From NCBI GenBank assembly GCA_025054775.1, contig JANWZA010000057.1:1-64000 (forward strand): DNA of 64,000 bases, in the 5' to 3' direction. Within the stretch, counting starts at the first letter, position 1. The number at the start of each line of letters is the position of its first letter. The notes beneath the pieces are model-generated. The model made no database searches and was not told where the DNA came from. It saw only the letters and a list, made by a program, of their open reading frames with translations. Positions 41,783 through 50,108 of the stretch are shown here, piece after piece. The stretch comes from Microscillaceae bacterium (lineage in GTDB: Bacteria; Bacteroidota; Bacteroidia; Cytophagales; Microscillaceae). Made by a program: the position numbers and the translations under genes.

Positions 41783-43912
41783 TTACTTATATTTAGGAAC
41801 AATCCCCATGTTGTAAAACATAAAGGACCACACATCTGTCTGCTCTTCTATGATTTTGGTAATTGATTTACCCGCTCCATGCCCTGCTTTGGTTTCTATG
41901 CGAATAAGTACAGGATTTTTACCTCGGTGCTTTTCTTGCAAGGTAGCAATAAATTTATAGGAATGAGCAGGTACTACGCGGTCGTCGTGGTCTGCCGTAG
42001 TTACCAAAGTAGCAGGATAACTTACTCCTTCCTTTATGTTGTGTAGAGGTGAGTAACGATACAAATTTTCAAATTCCTCTTTACTTCTTTCACTTGAACC
42101 ATACTCTACTACCCAGCCCCAGCCTACGGTAAACTTATGAAACCGAAGCATATCTAACACTCCTACGGCAGGAAAACATACCTTAAATAAATCGGGGCGC
42201 TGCGTCATGCATGCACCTACAAGTAAGCCACCATTAGAGCTACCTGCAATGGCTAAATAATCTCTGGAAGTATATTTTTCTTTTATCAAATATTCGGCTG
42301 CGGCAATAAAATCATCAAATACATTTTGCTTTTTGAAGAGCATACCTGCTTTATGCCACTCTTCGCCGTATTCGCCCCCTCCTCGAAGGTTTACCATAGC
42401 AAACACACCATTATTTTCCAAAAGCACTATTCGCAAAGCACTAAACGAAGGAGTTAGATTGACATTAAAACCTCCATACCCATACATATAGGTAGGATTT
42501 TTGCCTTTGAGTGCTAAGCCTTTTTTATGCACAATAAACATGGGTACTTTCGTGCCGTCTTTGCTTGTGAAAAATACTTGCTTGGTTACATAGTCTTCAG
42601 GATTAAATTTGACTTCTGTTTTACGAAAAACTTCCGATTTGCCTGTGGCAATATCATATTTGTAAATAGTGGGCGGATAGGTAAATGAGGTGAAGGTGTA
42701 GAAAATAAATTTATCATCTTTTTCTCCTTCAAAGCCTGAAGCCGTGCCTAAGGTAGGTAGCTGAATTTCACGTTCTAATTTACCATTCAAATCATATTGG
42801 TATATACGTGTGGTTACATCTTTAAGGTATTGAGCAAAAATTTTCCCACCTGCTGTGGTTACTCTGTCAAGCAATTCTTTGCGTTGCGGTATGATTTCTT
42901 TCCAGTTTGCCTCGTCAGGGTTTTGCGTATCTACTAAAATGAGCCGATAGTTTGGGGCTTTGTAGTTAGTGTAAACTAATAATTTGTCCTCAATGTTATC
43001 AACAATGCTATAATTAAAATTAAAACCTTTGAATAAAGTTTTGAAGTCTTTGTCTCCATTTCTTAGGTTTTTATAGCGTACTTCTGTTCCGTCTGTTCCT
43101 TCAGAGATGTAAAGAATTAAAAAACGCTCATCTTCGGTTACAGTAACTGTGTGATAACGTAGAGGATTTTGCTTATCTTCGTACACGAGTTGGTCATTGC
43201 TCTGTAAATCCCCTAATTTATGGTAATAAACTTTGTGAAATTCATTTTTTCCTGAATATACATTTCCTTCCAAAGGAGCATCATAGGCACTATAAAAGAA
43301 GCCGTCTTGATACCAAGCCGCCTTTGAAAATTTTACCCAATGAATGACATCTAGGAGTGGGGTTTTAGTTTCTACTTCCATTACTCTGATTTCAGCCCAA
43401 TCAGAGCCAGATTGAGAAACGTTATAGCTTACATACTTTTTGTTCTTAGAAAAACCAGATAGACTTACTGCCACTGTACCGTCTTCAGACATTAGGTTAG
43501 GGTTAAGAAACTCTTGTGGGGTACCATCTAATCCCTTTTGATAATAATATACACTTTGGTTTTGCAAGCCATCGTTTTTAGCAAAAAAGTAGTATTCGCC
43601 TGCTCTAACAGGTGAACTGTATTTAGGATAATTTGCCAATTCAGTCAAGCGGGCTTTTATTTTCTCACGGTAAGGAATTTGATTAAGGTAACTAAAAGTG
43701 AGTTTATTTTGCTCTTGAATCCAACTTTTTACAAATTCTGAGGTGTCTACTTCCAGCCAACGGTATGGATCTGGAACTTTTACACCAAAGTACGTATCAT
43801 AGGCACGGCCTTTAATTGTAGCGGGATATCGTAGGGTATCTTGTGCTAGGGTCTTTAGCATAGCTATTGAAGCAGGAAAAACACAAAAAATAAAACGAAC
43901 CCAATTTTTCAT
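41783..43912 (-). CDS. Prolyl oligopeptidase family serine peptidase (S9A)
   Basis: A 709-residue exported prolyl oligopeptidase with a signal peptide (about 1-23). The N-terminal part DPYRWLEVD and the seven-bladed propeller region (about 80-430) precede the hydrolase domain. The triad is complete: Ser559 (GSSNGG), Asp643 (DHDDRVV) and His678 (KAGHGAG). It cleaves short peptides after proline. The length matches porcine and bacterial enzymes (about 700). It lies immediately before the TPR lipoprotein. Its upstream region is cut short by the IS1-family element 82 bases away. Confidence 0.93.
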   Translation of the reverse strand: MKNWVRFIFCVFPASIAMLKTLAQDTLRYPATIKGRAYDTYFGVKVPDPYRWLEVDTSEFVKSWIQEQNKLTFSYLNQIPYREKIKARLTELANYPKYSSPVRAGEYYFFAKNDGLQNQSVYYYQKGLDGTPQEFLNPNLMSEDGTVAVSLSGFSKNKKYVSYNVSQSGSDWAEIRVMEVETKTPLLDVIHWVKFSKAAWYQDGFFYSAYDAPLEGNVYSGKNEFHKVYYHKLGDLQSNDQLVYEDKQNPLRYHTVTVTEDERFLILYISEGTDGTEVRYKNLRNGDKDFKTLFKGFNFNYSIVDNIEDKLLVYTNYKAPNYRLILVDTQNPDEANWKEIIPQRKELLDRVTTAGGKIFAQYLKDVTTRIYQYDLNGKLEREIQLPTLGTASGFEGEKDDKFIFYTFTSFTYPPTIYKYDIATGKSEVFRKTEVKFNPEDYVTKQVFFTSKDGTKVPMFIVHKKGLALKGKNPTYMYGYGGFNVNLTPSFSALRIVLLENNGVFAMVNLRGGGEYGEEWHKAGMLFKKQNVFDDFIAAAEYLIKEKYTSRDYLAIAGSSNGGLLVGACMTQRPDLFKVCFPAVGVLDMLRFHKFTVGWGWVVEYGSSERSKEEFENLYRYSPLHNIKEGVSYPATLVTTADHDDRVVPAHSYKFIATLQEKHRGKNPVLIRIETKAGHGAGKSITKIIEEQTDVWSFMFYNMGIVPKYK

Positions 43913-43993
43913 ATAGCAATTGATTTTGAAACGAGTGGATTACTAGTTTAATGCAAAATTACAAAAAAGTTGAAAACCATTAATTTTTCAGTA

Positions 43994-44734
43994 TTGTTAA
44001 TTTTGTATAGATTTTTTATTTTTGCAAAAAAATTACTAAAACCCCGAAACTATGGAACGATGTCCAAAATGCAAGTCAACAAAATTTTGTAAAGATGGTA
44101 TAGTTAAAGGCAAACAACGGTTCAAATGTAAAGACTGCAGTTTTCGTTTTAGAGTAGAACACATAGGAAAACCTGAAAAACTAAAACGTGATGCATTAAT
44201 ATTATATCTTGAAGGTCTAGGATTTCGCTCCATTGGCCGCTTCTTAAAAGTTAGCCACGTTACAGTCTTTAAATGGATTAAGGCATACGGAAAAAAACTT
44301 GATGAAATTCGGAGCAATGAGGCTATTGAAGTTGTTGAAATAGATGAGATGCACACATATATTGGTTCAAAAAAAACTATTGTTGGATATGGATTGCTGT
44401 TGATAGAGATGGACGTAAATTCATCAATTGCGAAGTTGGTACAAGGGGAACTGAAACTGGTGAAAAACTTTGGAAAAAGATTGAACCGAAGATAAAGGGA
44501 AAGGTTTGTACAGATTATTGGAAGGCATACGAAGCATTTGTGCCAGATGATATACATATACAATCCAAAGCGGACACCTTTACGGTTGAAGGATATAATA
44601 GTCTTTTGCGTCATTTTTTAGCACGATTAAGAAGGAAAACTAAATGTTACTCTAAAGTTGTTTATATGCTAGTCTATTCAGTTAAACTTTTAATGTTTAA
44701 GTGGAATAATGGTTTATCTATACTATTTTAACAA
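43994..44734 (+). mobile_element. IS1-family insertion sequence
   Basis: A 741-base element bounded by imperfect terminal inverted repeats: TTGTTAATTTTGTATAGAT at the left against TTGTTAAAATAGTATAGAT on the complement of the right end (16 of 19 bases agree). The length and gene arrangement are typical for IS1. No clear target-site duplication is visible, which fits insertion followed by a deletion. The left flank is the promoter region of the S9 peptidase; the right flank enters a truncated radical SAM gene. Confidence 0.82.
44052..44731 (+). CDS. IS1-family transposase, made by -1 frameshift
   Basis: Frame A (44052-44495) carries a four-Cys zinc finger (Cys4, Cys7, Cys26, Cys29) and a helix-turn-helix. 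A run of eight A residues at 44369-44376 lets ribosomes slip back one base: codons AAA-AAA re-pair and the next is AAC. The -1 frame then continues to the TAA at 44729-44731, giving a 226-residue fusion close to the 232-residue IS1 InsAB'. The DDE residues are in the EIDEMHTYIG, CTDYWKAY and FTVEGYNS segments, followed by LARLRRKTKCYSK as in IS1. Both frames are otherwise uninterrupted, so the element may be active. Confidence 0.82.
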
Positions 44735-45177
44735 CGCCAGTTGGATATTGACCGCATGAAAGGACACCACCTGTGGGCGCATTTTAGGGAGATACAACAC
44801 CTCTCCTTCCAGCAAAGTCAAGAGAGTATAAACCAATGGAATGAATACGTAAAATTAGCATACGAAGCTCAAAAAAATACTTAAAACCTAATGGCAAAAA
44901 AGTGATTTTAGAAAATATTATTCCTTTACAACTCCAAGAAACTACACAAGTTCCTGAAAATTACGATTGCCTTTTCCTTAACCGAGAACTTTGGATCTCT
45001 GCCGTAGGTAAAATTTCGCTTTGTTGTGCCCCTGACGAACTGCGTGATACCTTAGTAGGTTTCGGAAATATCCAGACATATACCTTACAAGAGGTACTTT
45101 TGAGTGAAAATTACCAAAATTTAGTAAAAAACTACAAACAAATTTCTTTATGTCAAACTTGCAATATGCGAAAATGA
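44735..45177 (+). pseudogene. C-terminal remnant of a radical SAM/SPASM protein
   Basis: Directly after the IS end the sequence reads RQLDIDRMKGHHLWAHFREI and continues for 45 codons. It then shifts frame at a run of seven A (44871-44877) into KYLKPNGKKVILENIIPLQL and onward to TGA at 45175-45177. The second part contains CLFLNRELWISAVGKISLCC and SLCQTCNMRK, the Cys pattern of a SPASM auxiliary iron-sulfur domain. The radical SAM core with its CxxxCxxC motif is missing; it is not on the other side of the IS either. The stop codon overlaps the next gene's ATG (ATGA), as in an operon. Confidence 0.7.
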
Positions 45178-45634
45178 AAGAAATTTTTACTACCTATTGG
45201 CATTTTCTAGCTTTGCGAAATGCTTGTCAATATCATCTTTTTGATTTGATCGAACAGCACCAACCTACTCATAAAGAATTACATTGTGTGCTAACTTGAA
45301 ACTTGTAAGTGGAAACTTTTTTAAGCCACTACCCTTCCAAACGGAAGCTATTATTTTGAGCCGTATCTTACATGATTGGAATGATGAGAGATGCACACAG
45401 ATTTTACAGAATTGCCACAAGGCACTGCTCCCTAATAGGAAAATTTACATTATAGAAAACTTACAAGATAAAAAAGAGACGCCTTTGCTTTCGCTTAATA
45501 TGTTGCTTATATGTCAAAATTATGAGCGCAATTTATCTGAATATCAATCACTTTTAGATAAAATAAATTTTCAAATTCAGACGATTGTACCTCTAAACGA
45601 ACTTCAATCGGTCTTGATATGCCAAACGCAATAA
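45174..45634 (+). pseudogene. O-methyltransferase with internal deletion
   Basis: An ATG at 45174 overlaps the preceding stop and starts MKEIFTTYWHFLALRNACQY, the dimerisation helix of plant-type/hydroxyneurosporene O-methyltransferases. This piece ends at a stop near 45300. A second frame from about 45300 reads SGNFFKPLPFQTEAIILSRI, LHDWNDERC and YIIENLQDK, the C-terminal SAM-methyltransferase blocks (family 2). Roughly 170 residues including the SAM-binding glycine motif are absent between them, so a deletion has joined the two ends out of frame. Non-functional. Confidence 0.68.
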
Positions 45635-45822
45635 TTTTGCCTGAACCTTCTCAGGATAATACACACTTTGTATTAAACGGGAAAGCAGTTTTCCAGCGTA
45701 CTTTTCTCTCGGCGTTGCCTTTTCATGCTGAAGTAGATCTTGCAGCAGTACAAGCTTATTTCAAACTCTTCATTCTAACTAATTATTCCAAAAATATTAC
45801 TATCTTTCCAACGTTTTATTAG
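45619..45822 (+). pseudogene. Truncated WG-repeat-like protein start
   Basis: A 67-codon frame starts 16 bases inside the end of the methyltransferase remnant, the spacing of an operon gene. It reads MPNAIILPEPSQDNTHFVLN, then FQRTFLSALPFH and LAAVQAY. The F-x-x-ALPF-x-x-x-LAAVQ pattern resembles one unit of WG-repeat proteins (A-x-P-F-x-x-G-L-A-x-V). After that the sequence loses all resemblance, so it is probably cut off by a deletion. The family call is weak. If translated, it would be a fragment. Confidence 0.4.
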
Positions 45823-45884
45823 CTTATTTACGTAATGTAAGTAAGCTAATTTCATTGTCTCACCTAACCCTTCTCTACAAGACT

Positions 45885-48800
45885 ATGTTACGTTTTTATC
45901 TCCTTTTATGCTTTTTTTACCTGCTTTTAGCTCAAAAAACACTTTGCCAAACCTGGGCAGAACTACTAGCTCAACCCGAGAAATATTACCAAACAGGCAA
46001 CTATCTGAAAGCCCGTGCAAAAAAATCGGCTTACGAAAGAATGCTTAGAAAGAAATTCAAAAACCAAGATGTAGAAATATATCGTATTTGGTTCACCATC
46101 CTTGAAGCCCGTTGTAATGAAGCCCTCGGCTTATACGACCGCATGGAAGCCCAACTCCAAGAGGTACAAAAACAACTACAAAATTGGAAACAAAAAGACT
46201 TCAAAAATTTTGCCTTCGCTCAATGCCAAATTGCCGAAGTATATCTACAATTTGGGTATTATACCCAAGCTGAAAGAATTTTGTTAGAAAACTACCAAGA
46301 AATTACTCAAAAATTACCCCAAGAAAAGCTACTTCAAGCCGAATATGCTCAACGCTTAGCCTACGTTTTAGGGCAAAAAGAACTTGTCAAAGAAGCTCAA
46401 ACATATACCCAAGAATTAGAAAAAATATGGCAAGAGGCAATAAATAGTAAACAAATTGACAACCGAAAAGCTACCAAAAATGAACTCGCTTACCTAAAAA
46501 GCCGACTAGCTGATTTCTATACCTTGCAAGCCTTTCTGCTTTCGCAAAGCGGCGATTACAAGCAAGCTGACAAGATTTTTGAGGCTAACGAACAGAAGAT
46601 ACGCAGTTTAGTGGGCTCAAAATCAATGGCTTACATCAATCACTTACTTCTGCGAGGCATCAATTCTATTCAGGGAGAAGCCCGCGATATGGACGAGGAG
46701 ATGGAAACTGCTTTCAAAAAAGCAGGAAAAGCTCTTAAAAAAACGAGCAAAGTGTATTTAGCCACCTTGTATAACCTAATACGCCTCAGTGCTAATACTT
46801 TGCAACTGGAACGTGCTAATAAGTTGCTAAAGCAGTGGACTTCAGCTACTGCTTCATTTCCTAAAAATGGTATCTATGACCTCACTCTCGCTACCCTGAA
46901 AGCAGAGATGCAACTCCTAATAGGCAAAAAAGAAGCCCTTAATATTTTGAAAAATTTACTTAAAGACACAAAAAGCCTACCTCTAACCCACCCACTAAGA
47001 CTAGATATTTTAGATATTTTATATGAATTTAATACTAAAAATGATTATGACCTATTAGCCGCTGAAATGAATGTCAAAGAACGTTTGGCTTTTGTGAGAG
47101 AAGTTTTAGGAGAAAATGCTATTCCATTCTTTGTAAATCGTATTCTTTTAGCAGAATATTTAATAGAAAATTCAGAAAATTTAGCCGAGGCAAAAAAAAT
47201 TTATGAAGAAAGCCCACAAAAAATGGTATTTGATGCTCTAAATCCACAACACCGTGATTATTTGCAAGTATTACAATACGTAAGCAATTTTGCCGAAATT
47301 ACTGATGACTATACCCAAGCCCTACAACTCAGCAAACAAAAACTAGCTATCTTGAAAGATAAGTACGGAGAACAAAGCCTGAACTATGGAGAACATCTAC
47401 TTAACATTGCTAATCTACAACTAAAAAAAGGAGAGTATCGGCAGGCAGAGGAAAATATAAACCAAGCCATGAAAACTATCCGCAAAGAAACAAGCAAAAA
47501 ATCAGTAGAATATGCCAAAGCCCTCAGTACTGCTGCACACCTATACGGTATTATCGGCTTGTATGATGAAGCCGAAGAGGCCTTAGAAAAAGTGAGTGAT
47601 ATTATCGAGAAAACCAACGATGTTACCCTCAAAATGCAAACCATTGAGGAGTTGGCATTTTTGTATCTACGCATGGGCAAATATAATGAAACCGAAGAAA
47701 TGCTCGTGTTAGATATTACAGAAAAGGAGAAAAAATATGGCAAGTTTAGCCGAAAACTTATCTCTCCACTTAACCAAATGAGCCAACTCCAACTGCTCAA
47801 AGGTGATTACAAGTTAGCTGAAAAAACTGCTCAACGTGCCGTAAATATTGCCGAAAAAGTATTTGGTAAAAGCAGCATCCCCTATGCAGAAGCCACTTTC
47901 AACCTAAGTAAGTTTTATGCAGAAATCGGGGATTATCAACGTGCTGAAAAGCAAATACAAGACGTGATACAACTTCAAAGAAAACTCCTCGGCGACAAGC
48001 ACGTAGAGCTGGCTAACTCACTCACCGAACTAGCACTCATCAAATTCTATAAAGAAAAACCTGAAAAAGACCAAGCCGCTGAACTATTAGAGGAAAGTAA
48101 AAGTATTATCTCGTATAACTTTGATAAAAAACATCCGCTTTATGCTGAAGCCTTGAAAAATTTAGCCCTTTTAGCTATTGAGCAGGGAAATACTGAAATA
48201 GCTTTCAACTACTTGAAAGAGGCAGACAAAATCCTAGAAAATAAACTCGGTAGCAGAAATAAAGGCTCTGCAGAAGTCGCTCTCCTATTAGGCGATCTTT
48301 ATTTGAAACGAAATGACCTTGTTACCTCAGAAAAGAAATATGCCCAAGCAGAAAGGATATTTGCTAAAATTTTTAGCCCCGAGCATCCTAAATACGTAAA
48401 AACACAAAGCAAACTCGCCCAAGTAAATTACATCAAAAATGATTTCGCCGATGCTAACAAAAAAATGGACGTAGCAATTAGTGCCTACCTTAAATACATC
48501 AAAAATTATTTTCCTGCTTTGAGCGAAAACGAAAAAGCCAAATTTTGGGCTTTAATAAAGCCTGATTTTGAGTTCTTTAATTCGCTTGCTCTCAAACAAG
48601 CCGACCGCAACCCCGAAATGATAGAAAAAATGTACAACAACATTTTGGCTACCAAAGCCATTTTGCTCAGCTCTTCTATCAAAATGAAACAAAGAATTTT
48701 GAACTCTAAAGACCAAGAAATAAAAGACCTGTACAAAAAGTGGATTGAAAAAAAAGAATACTTAAATACCATTATTGCCCTCTCTCCTGAGCAATTAGCC

Positions 48801-50108
48801 GAACAGGGTATTAACAAAGAGCAACTAGAAAAAGAAGTAGAACAAATTGAAAAAGAATTAAGCGAAAAGTCTGATGCCTTTGCCCAAGGAGTGGATAACC
48901 TAACTTACCAATGGAACGAACTAAAAAAAGGATTAGCAAAACACGAAGCCGCAATTGAAATAGTGCGATTTCGCCTCTTTGACCGCGGCTTTACAGACTC
49001 CGTGCTATACGCCGCACTAATTGTTAGCCAAGAAACGAAAAAAGCACCTAAACTCGTCTTATTGAGCAACGGAAGAGAATTGGAGCAGAAGTATTTCAAG
49101 TATTACAGAAATTCTGTTCGCTTCCGAAGTATAGATAAATACTCTTATATCAATTTCTGGAAGCCAATTGAAAATAATTTGGGAGAAAAAATCACCGACA
49201 TATATCTCTCTCCTGACGGCGTATATAACCAAGTAAACCTTGAGTCTATGCAAATTGATGAAAATACCTTTGTGATTGATAAATTCAACATACGCTTGGT
49301 AAGCAATACCAAAGACTTGATAATTAAGTATAAAGAACAGGAACTGGCAGCAACTAACAAAAAAAGCCGTAGGAAACGAAAAGAAAATACTACCACTACG
49401 GAAGCTCCCAAAGCTGTACTTATTGGCTCACCTGAATTTTACTTGCAAACCTCAGGAAATCTCCTTACTCCTCTTCCAGGCACATTAGAAGAGGTGAACA
49501 AAATTAGTCAGATTTTGCAAGCTAATAATTGGCAAAGCGAAGTCTTTACTCAAAGTCAAACTGATGAAGCACTTATCAAAAGTTTATCTAATCCTAAAAT
49601 ATTTCATATTGCTACGCACGGGCTTTTCAGAGAAGACAAAGAAACCGATATCGAAGGTAGTTCGCTTCAGGGAAATGCCTTACTTAATAATCCGATGTTT
49701 AAGGTAGGGCTTGCTGTGAGAGGAGGAGGGGATGTACTAGAAAAAAGTAGCACTAATTTTAACCTTGAAGACGGAATTTTGACTGCGGCAGAAGCCTCCT
49801 GCCTGAATTTTGATAATACAGACTTGGTAGTTTTGAGCGCCTGTGAAACAGGACGGGGCGACGTACAAGTAGGGGAAGGTGTATATGGCTTGCAAAGGGC
49901 TTTTCTCGTGGCAGGTGCTAAATGCGTGATAATGAGCCTCTTTAAGGTAAATGATGAAATTACGCAACAACTCATGACTACCCTCTACCAAAAAATGATA
50001 CAACAAAAAGACATACGCAAAGCCTTTAATGAAGCCCAAAAAGAAATTAAAAGTCAGTATAAACACCCGATTTTTTGGGGGGCATTCAACATTATTGGCT
50101 TGGATTAA
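45885..50108 (+). CDS. Secreted TPR-CHAT protease candidate
   Basis: A 1407-residue protein with a signal peptide (about 1-22, ending TLCQT). It has a long stretch of tetratricopeptide repeats including Kinesin-light-chain-type units (EHLLNIANLQLKKGEYRQAE, SPLNQMSQLQLLKGDYKLAE), a charged linker and a C-terminal CHAT caspase-like domain (about 1100-1405). The catalytic pair is His1245 (IATHG) and Cys1320 (SACETG), and the domain ends PIFWGAFNIIG as usual. CHAT peptidases cleave proteins, but the targets of secreted Bacteroidota versions are unknown. The ATG at 45885 starts the signal peptide; the TTG at 45855 is rejected. A strong hairpin follows. Confidence 0.88.
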   Translation: MLRFYLLLCFFYLLLAQKTLCQTWAELLAQPEKYYQTGNYLKARAKKSAYERMLRKKFKNQDVEIYRIWFTILEARCNEALGLYDRMEAQLQEVQKQLQNWKQKDFKNFAFAQCQIAEVYLQFGYYTQAERILLENYQEITQKLPQEKLLQAEYAQRLAYVLGQKELVKEAQTYTQELEKIWQEAINSKQIDNRKATKNELAYLKSRLADFYTLQAFLLSQSGDYKQADKIFEANEQKIRSLVGSKSMAYINHLLLRGINSIQGEARDMDEEMETAFKKAGKALKKTSKVYLATLYNLIRLSANTLQLERANKLLKQWTSATASFPKNGIYDLTLATLKAEMQLLIGKKEALNILKNLLKDTKSLPLTHPLRLDILDILYEFNTKNDYDLLAAEMNVKERLAFVREVLGENAIPFFVNRILLAEYLIENSENLAEAKKIYEESPQKMVFDALNPQHRDYLQVLQYVSNFAEITDDYTQALQLSKQKLAILKDKYGEQSLNYGEHLLNIANLQLKKGEYRQAEENINQAMKTIRKETSKKSVEYAKALSTAAHLYGIIGLYDEAEEALEKVSDIIEKTNDVTLKMQTIEELAFLYLRMGKYNETEEMLVLDITEKEKKYGKFSRKLISPLNQMSQLQLLKGDYKLAEKTAQRAVNIAEKVFGKSSIPYAEATFNLSKFYAEIGDYQRAEKQIQDVIQLQRKLLGDKHVELANSLTELALIKFYKEKPEKDQAAELLEESKSIISYNFDKKHPLYAEALKNLALLAIEQGNTEIAFNYLKEADKILENKLGSRNKGSAEVALLLGDLYLKRNDLVTSEKKYAQAERIFAKIFSPEHPKYVKTQSKLAQVNYIKNDFADANKKMDVAISAYLKYIKNYFPALSENEKAKFWALIKPDFEFFNSLALKQADRNPEMIEKMYNNILATKAILLSSSIKMKQRILNSKDQEIKDLYKKWIEKKEYLNTIIALSPEQLAEQGINKEQLEKEVEQIEKELSEKSDAFAQGVDNLTYQWNELKKGLAKHEAAIEIVRFRLFDRGFTDSVLYAALIVSQETKKAPKLVLLSNGRELEQKYFKYYRNSVRFRSIDKYSYINFWKPIENNLGEKITDIYLSPDGVYNQVNLESMQIDENTFVIDKFNIRLVSNTKDLIIKYKEQELAATNKKSRRKRKENTTTTEAPKAVLIGSPEFYLQTSGNLLTPLPGTLEEVNKISQILQANNWQSEVFTQSQTDEALIKSLSNPKIFHIATHGLFREDKETDIEGSSLQGNALLNNPMFKVGLAVRGGGDVLEKSSTNFNLEDGILTAAEASCLNFDNTDLVVLSACETGRGDVQVGEGVYGLQRAFLVAGAKCVIMSLFKVNDEITQQLMTTLYQKMIQQKDIRKAFNEAQKEIKSQYKHPIFWGAFNIIGLD

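Follow-up and report, generated by a model that had tools for sequence, protein, structure and literature searches.

A dead operon remnant beside an IS1 copy leads to a mobile glycosyltransferase, radical SAM and WG-repeat cassette that may tailor a glycosylated small molecule

Results

Remains of three genes at the edge of an IS1 copy

The window (the whole stretch of 64,000 nucleotides analysed here) is contig C50 of a 3.0-Mb draft genome in 65 contigs from a Microscillaceae bacterium. As judged by alignment, positions 44739-45822 are almost certainly the 3' remains of a radical SAM (rSAM), O-methyltransferase (OMT) and WG-repeat operon, adjoining a copy of IS1. The features are:

43991-44738, forward strand: IS1-family insertion sequence abutting the rSAM remnant; its ends were set by near-full copies elsewhere in the genome
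44739-45177, forward strand: 3' remnant of a rSAM gene of the Twitch type, family residues ~204-349 of 349
44968-45162, forward strand: Twitch (half-SPASM) cysteine motif C-x12-G-x4-C ... C-x2-C from the motif scan, unbroken in the fragment
45174-45299, forward strand: N-terminal OMT fragment, dimerisation domain (alternative start 45150)
~45293-45634, forward strand: C-terminal fragment of the same OMT gene, following an internal loss of ~170 codons
45619-45822, forward strand: 5' remnant of a WG-repeat beta-propeller gene, family residues ~1-42 of ~233

The rSAM frame begins at the edge of IS1, with a CAG codon at 44738, and ends with a TGA at 45175-45177; it is frameshifted at a run of seven A (44871-44877), so that the truncation and the frameshift of the original prediction are both seen in the sequence. 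Once joined, the fragment aligns over residues ~204-349 with five intact relatives at 57-66% identity (E 2.5e-55 to 1.7e-69; best, the rSAM of locus L018 at 66%, E 1.7e-69) and with a sixth at 45% (E 1.9e-39), and it falls inside the free-living branch of the rSAM family tree. The N-terminal CxxxCxxC domain and the upstream glycosyltransferase (GT) are missing from the window. Against the 324-aa OMTs of L018 and L021, the first OMT fragment covers residues 8-39 (52-56% identity), with a weak match to PF08100 (Dimerisation, E 0.023), and the second covers residues 211-323 (55-58%, E to 8e-44), with a match to Methyltransf_2 (PF00891, E 5.7e-20); the ~170 residues gone from the middle include the SAM-binding segment, and the SAM-binding domain is not intact. 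In the WG fragment, residues 9-42 alone align with the best ~233-aa WG proteins (52-54%, E 8e-9). WG profile A1 matches at 45649-45759 (E 2.2e-4), the frame beyond the family part is unrelated, and the fragment by itself has no Pfam match. Alignments and Pfam or profile matches thus place the three fragments in the families originally named, the second gene without its middle and the third without its end, as had been read. OMT and WG are separate genes in the family order, and the predicted overlaps are present at both junctions (ATGA at 45174-45177 between rSAM and OMT, 16 bases between OMT and WG), similar to those of intact relatives.

The IS1 copy has terminal inverted repeats visible directly in the sequence, and its transposase lies in two frames around an A8C run, an IS1-style -1 slip site. 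Because a split at such a run is typical of programmed -1 frameshifting, the transposase at 43991-44738 may be functional. IS1 is found in many, often fragmentary copies across this genome: of 34 matches, about 8 are near full length and several lie at contig ends. The present copy has no target-site duplication, its flanks being different (AATTTTTCA / AGTTGGATA), and on its left lies an unrelated gene on the opposite strand (41783-43912, a prolyl oligopeptidase by eye); the 5' part of the cassette was therefore lost through deletion or rearrangement at IS1 and not by simple insertion. Directly 3' of the remnant, 45855-50108 encodes a large protein that, by eye, is rich in TPRs and has a CHAT-like (caspase-type) region at its C-terminus.

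Genome-wide protein and profile searches found no second intact copy of the cassette in this genome, in keeping with the prediction that the strain has lost the operon. Neither the GT (best match 27%) nor the rSAM has a close copy elsewhere in the genome, and the other WG matches lie on other contigs, in longer ORFs with WG repeats. Biologically, the remnant is dead; it represents the ordinary decay of one copy of a little-described mobile cassette.

Intact relatives share a conserved gene order

A protein search with the rSAM was positive in 8 of 57 related genomes (the host included, one of them weakly), and an order-wide profile search in 9 of 391, this remnant counted. The arrangement nearest to that of the window was found within the same family, in genome G007, where a PspF-like regulator, a GT4 glycosyltransferase, the rSAM, the OMT and the WG gene follow one another. 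The intact cluster whose existence in related Cytophagales had been proposed as a check thus exists, with all three families adjacent. This bears on the simplest alternative, that three unrelated genes were joined by chance in a genome where abundant IS1 copies could rearrange the DNA: since intact relatives keep the same order and overlaps, both within the family and at much greater distance, we reject chance adjacency, and its probability seems to us vanishingly small.

Scanning 84,980 species genomes gave 282 confirmed relatives, from which 80 loci were fetched, mostly of Bacteroidota with a few from Planctomycetota, Leptospiraceae, Anaerolineaceae and Melioribacter and one from a Lachnospiraceae bin. 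The full cassette reads: divergent regulator, optional small gene or viperin, GT4, rSAM, phosphatase (usually one), OMT (often), carbamoyltransferase (sometimes) and WG. GT4 and rSAM are fused in 50 ORFs and are neighbours elsewhere; clustering detected WG in 73 of the 80 fetched loci, and within 7.5 kb an OMT lies near 40 of 87 loci, a carbamoyltransferase near 10 and PhyH near 3. As its GT4 is lost, the window holds a decayed derivative and not a working member of the cassette. Within L048:2424-5470 (locus L021), a kinase-like ORF precedes the GT, and two related ORFs of ~200 aa with no Pfam match stand between GT and rSAM.

The distribution is patchy, with WG present in 1 of 396 genomes of the phylum, and the GT-rSAM proteins of L049 (a Flavobacteriaceae isolate), L056 (a Cytophagales bin) and L062 (a Saprospiraceae bin) share ~89-92% identity. 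From this patchiness and the identity of about 92% across orders, we infer that the cassette is horizontally moved. In one prophage-like contig the whole cassette is cargo between endolysin-like and integrase-like genes (L174:7293-13345), and in L175 it lies in a phage-like high-GC contig (the neighbouring domains in both being our own reading of the sequence). It is also carried by phage WO (L177), and GT, rSAM, WG-OMT and PhyH genes lie on an Arsenophonus plasmid (L178:7828-12897). The GT and rSAM of L178 are separate ORFs missing from the gene table of the record.

Enzymes and phosphatase exchange

The first gene had been predicted to be of the SPASM type. Its fragment does match Pfam SPASM (PF13186, E 2.2e-10), but the cysteines fit a four-cysteine Twitch domain: the pattern C-x10-14-G-x4-C ... 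C-x2-C is present in all 87 rSAM relatives and in the window, and the full SPASM pattern CxxCx5Cx3C in none of the 88 rows of the motif scan (relatives plus window). The CxxxCxxC cluster motif, lost in the window, is found in 86 of 87 relatives. Since the auxiliary domain is Twitch and not SPASM, a peptide substrate is not implied; of the peptide- or metabolite-tailoring pathway that had been suggested, tailoring fits and the peptide does not follow. Profile matches among solved structures are SuiB (5v1q, E 2.4e-6) and, in the Twitch region, BtrN (4m7t, E 2e-4). No curated equivalog matched the rSAM above its cut-off, and any reaction ascribed to it is for this reason a guess.

In the fusion alignment of GT-rSAM proteins an E-x7-E motif (E331, E339), typical of retaining GT4 enzymes, is invariant. 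The GT half of an AlphaFold model (pLDDT 82.5 for the whole model) resembles methylmannose mannosyltransferase, MshA, sucrose-phosphate synthase and BshA. The modelled WG protein (pLDDT 96.6) has beta-propellers as its structure matches, and OMT relatives with structures include many natural-product enzymes.

Three kinds of phosphatase occur: a histidine phosphatase (HP), a second histidine-phosphatase type located after WG (HPb) and a tyrosine phosphatase (PF13350) that in most cases carries a nucleotidyltransferase at its N-terminus. Among 80 WG loci (a set widened with phage, plasmid and relative loci), exactly one phosphatase is present in 67, two in 1 and none recognised in 12; the kinds are mutually exclusive (Fisher p 5e-11) and change 16 times along the rSAM tree. 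On these two grounds the pattern looks like repeated replacement of swapped enzymes at one step, a concrete clue to the chemistry. The exclusivity of the phosphatases and the fold neighbours of the GT, which many GT4 enzymes share, together suggest that the GT4 acceptor is probably phosphorylated.

Regulators, viperins and flanking genes

Among 58 loci with at least 2.2 kb of upstream sequence, a regulator stands directly upstream in 39 (37 divergent, 2 on the same strand; 22 of the long CARF type) and is missing from about a third. The long form (E 2e-79) and the short form found in G007 (E 5e-26) both match the PADLOC model RtcR_PspF1 CARF_AAA_HTH. The GAFTGA motif occurs in some regulators and is missing from many. 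Sigma-54 promoter matches were found in 10 of 68 upstream regions with ~3 expected, too weak a signal for us to keep such a promoter as the clear target of the regulator.

The gap between regulator and GT may hold one of several first genes: a DUF4258-like gene of ~100 aa (93%, E 4e-7 in a profile comparison), a member of another ~100-aa family, a 46-aa peptide gene (pepA) or a second peptide gene of ~46 aa. A viperin lies upstream of the GT in 6 of the 80 loci (L051, L095, L096, L100, L112 and L125), and the two checked with PADLOC were confirmed. Viperins are present in 1 of 396 phylum genomes, and those of the six loci may merely share islands with the cassettes. The 132 flanking genes matched 213 PADLOC models, against 6 for 126 control genes, and some flanks include named genes of restriction-modification or other defence types. 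The models being redundant and the controls drawn from other genomes, this defence-island enrichment is only suggestive. The cassette's own GT-rSAM, WG, HP, OMT, NT-PTP and carbamoyltransferase have no strong match in the PADLOC 2023 library.

A 46-aa peptide gene beside some cassettes

A short peptide gene beside the cluster had also been proposed as a check; the 46-aa gene pepA lies beside some intact cassettes (about 15 distinct loci from 19 tblastn rows, some loci being duplicated) and is absent from most. Its codon differences are 301 synonymous to 107 nonsynonymous, as pairwise sums over pairs that are not independent. In L056:8606-8719 the pepA sequence forms an in-frame N-terminal fusion with the GT-rSAM ORF, and a fusion to the GT N-terminus is also seen in L019. 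It cannot be considered a cassette-only gene, as it is also found alone. In the host genome outside the window, the only cassette-related gene is a lone intact pepA homologue near a contig start (C32:255-386, L181), 97% identical over 34 aa to the pepA of G038 (L184), which sits after a dioxygenase-like gene and a gene with a WHYHI motif. The lone homologue is possibly the split-off 5' end of the window cassette.

Discussion

The dead remnant is of value as a lead to a compact, mobile cassette, for whose intact copies a biosynthetic or tailoring role is likely. With a GT4 as first enzyme, often fused to the rSAM, and with phosphatases and a carbamoyltransferase, a sugar-based small molecule is the more likely product. 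We lean slightly towards an inducible pathway that tailors a glycosylated small molecule, whose dead 3' end is what the window would hold. In such a pathway, the regulator would sense a stress or infection signal and switch the cassette on; the GT4 enzyme would glycosylate a probably phosphorylated acceptor, the phosphatase would take off the acceptor phosphate, and the rSAM would oxidise or rearrange the product. Methyl and carbamoyl groups would then be added as caps, with the WG propeller binding an intermediate or the enzymes. The outcome would be a small glycosylated metabolite, most plausibly for defence or competition, a role that we put just short of an even call. As a tentative extension, intact cassettes could constitute an undescribed inducible defence system, in which infection or RNA damage is sensed by a CARF/PspF-like regulator that triggers the synthesis of a glycosylated, radical-modified small molecule, the exchangeable phosphatases and caps being diversified steps; WO and other mobile elements would then bear this chemistry as a means of controlling superinfection or interacting with the host.

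Other products have to be considered. Building glycans is common for GT4 enzymes, surface sugars often bear methyl and carbamoyl groups and phages carry such genes, so the cassette might modify a cell-surface polysaccharide (LPS, capsule or exopolysaccharide), for instance by lysogenic conversion that alters phage receptors; exopolysaccharide or LPS roles have indeed been suggested for WD0611-WD0613 and WD0620 of phage WO (Baldridge 2015, PMC4701759; Bordenstein 2022, PMC9203015). Yet no flippase, polymerase or membrane transferase was recognised in the conserved cassette, the signal suggested by the CARF-type regulators and viperins is an intracellular one, and a Twitch rSAM with a soluble propeller would be unusual for a surface glycan, which makes this reading unlikely in our view, if still the strongest of the alternatives. 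A RiPP-like system, with the 46-aa peptide as substrate of the GT, rSAM and OMT, is less probable again. The peptide's presence in about 15 cassettes, its coding constraint and its GT fusions all speak for it, as do its co-occurrence with the cassette among the 57 relatives (Fisher p 0.001) and the rSAM match to SuiB. Against these stand its absence from most cassettes, where in other loci unrelated short genes take its place, its occurrence apart from any cassette (in G038 and G002, and alone in the host genome) and the Twitch nature of the rSAM; by our own reading, the peptide also seems to be hydrophilic and disordered and shows no obvious division into leader and core.

RNA repair or tRNA modification is the least probable of these products, and we give it little credence. 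The kinship of the regulator with RtcR, which governs RNA repair (PMC9650030), the DUF4258-like first genes and the nucleotidyltransferase-phosphatase of many loci would fit a cassette under the control of an RtcR-like regulator that shields RNA, or tags it, once damage has occurred; none of the conserved genes was recognised as an RNA ligase or cyclase or as having an RNA-binding domain, and the OMT is in the small-molecule PF00891 class.

Comparison with known systems

The regulators, the viperins, the carriage by prophage and plasmid and the link to phage WO all go beyond the original prediction. In the literature searched, we found no description of the conserved cassette, its regulators, the phosphatase swapping or the viperin link. 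The same literature held nothing relevant on WG repeats together with radical SAM or defence, on RtcR and viperins, on viperins and either CARF or carbamoyltransferase, or on the combination of CARF, sigma-54 and radical SAM; an earlier mention elsewhere, in work on CARF classification or prokaryotic viperins, is possible.

By profile, SuiB and BtrN are the sole solved relatives of the rSAM; they are distant, and their substrates are not transferable. MshA/MshA2-type and sucrose-phosphate synthase/phosphatase pairs, each a GT4 plus a phosphatase, resemble the cassette in GT4 fold neighbours and a same-operon phosphatase, by analogy only. The divergent regulators share the match to RtcR_PspF1 CARF_AAA_HTH with the RtcR/CARF-AAA-HTH activators, which have been linked to restriction-modification systems (Makarova 2014, PMC4012209), but are linked here to GT-rSAM-WG and not to rtcBA or restriction-modification. 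Prokaryotic viperins (pVip, PADLOC PDLC02903/04) are found upstream of the GT in the six loci above, whereas the cassette rSAM is a different, Twitch-bearing enzyme whose own pVip match is weak (E 4e-9).

The closest described relative of the cassette is WD0613/WD0614 of the Undecim Cluster of Wolbachia phage WO. This cluster comprises WD0611-WD0621, and its core WD0613 (a GT and rSAM fusion), WD0614 (WG repeat plus O-methyltransferase) and WD0615 (PhyH); Undecim genes have also been reported from Cardinium and from rickettsial plasmids (Baldridge 2015, PMC4701759; Bordenstein 2022, PMC9203015). In a proteome study, Baldridge 2015 (PMC4701759) described the WG-OMT fusion WD0614 and the expression of Undecim genes, gave BLAST homologues in Saprospira grandis, Capnocytophaga granulosa, Haliangium and Desulfovibrio hydrothermalis, and pointed to homologues in Saprospira grandis and Capnocytophaga that might be syntenic; the kinship of WO and free-living genes was thus remarked on as early as 2015. 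Bordenstein 2022 (PMC9203015), where WD0613 is likewise a GT/rSAM fusion, proposed envelope, methylation and antibiotic-export roles from annotation.

The WO GT-rSAM is ~47% identical over its full length to a Bizionia fusion, and the likeness extends to WG and O-methyltransferase adjoining GT-rSAM and to mobility (phage, plasmid). The rSAMs of WO, Cardinium, Arsenophonus and L175 nevertheless form a separate branch, in whose loci (L175 excepted) WG is fused to OMT, followed in WO and Arsenophonus by PhyH and threonine aldolase. PhyH, threonine aldolases, an ABC transporter and an epimerase are found in WO and partly in Arsenophonus; none of these, and no regulator, stands beside the remnant in the window. 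Unlike WO, the free-living type has separate OMT and WG genes, exchangeable phosphatases, a carbamoyltransferase and CARF/PspF-like regulators. The cassette ties Undecim core genes to CARF-type or viperin-associated loci of free-living bacteria, a link absent from the literature found, and since free-living cassettes are present in isolated Flavobacteriaceae strains, what the Undecim genes do can be tested in hosts other than an obligate endosymbiont.
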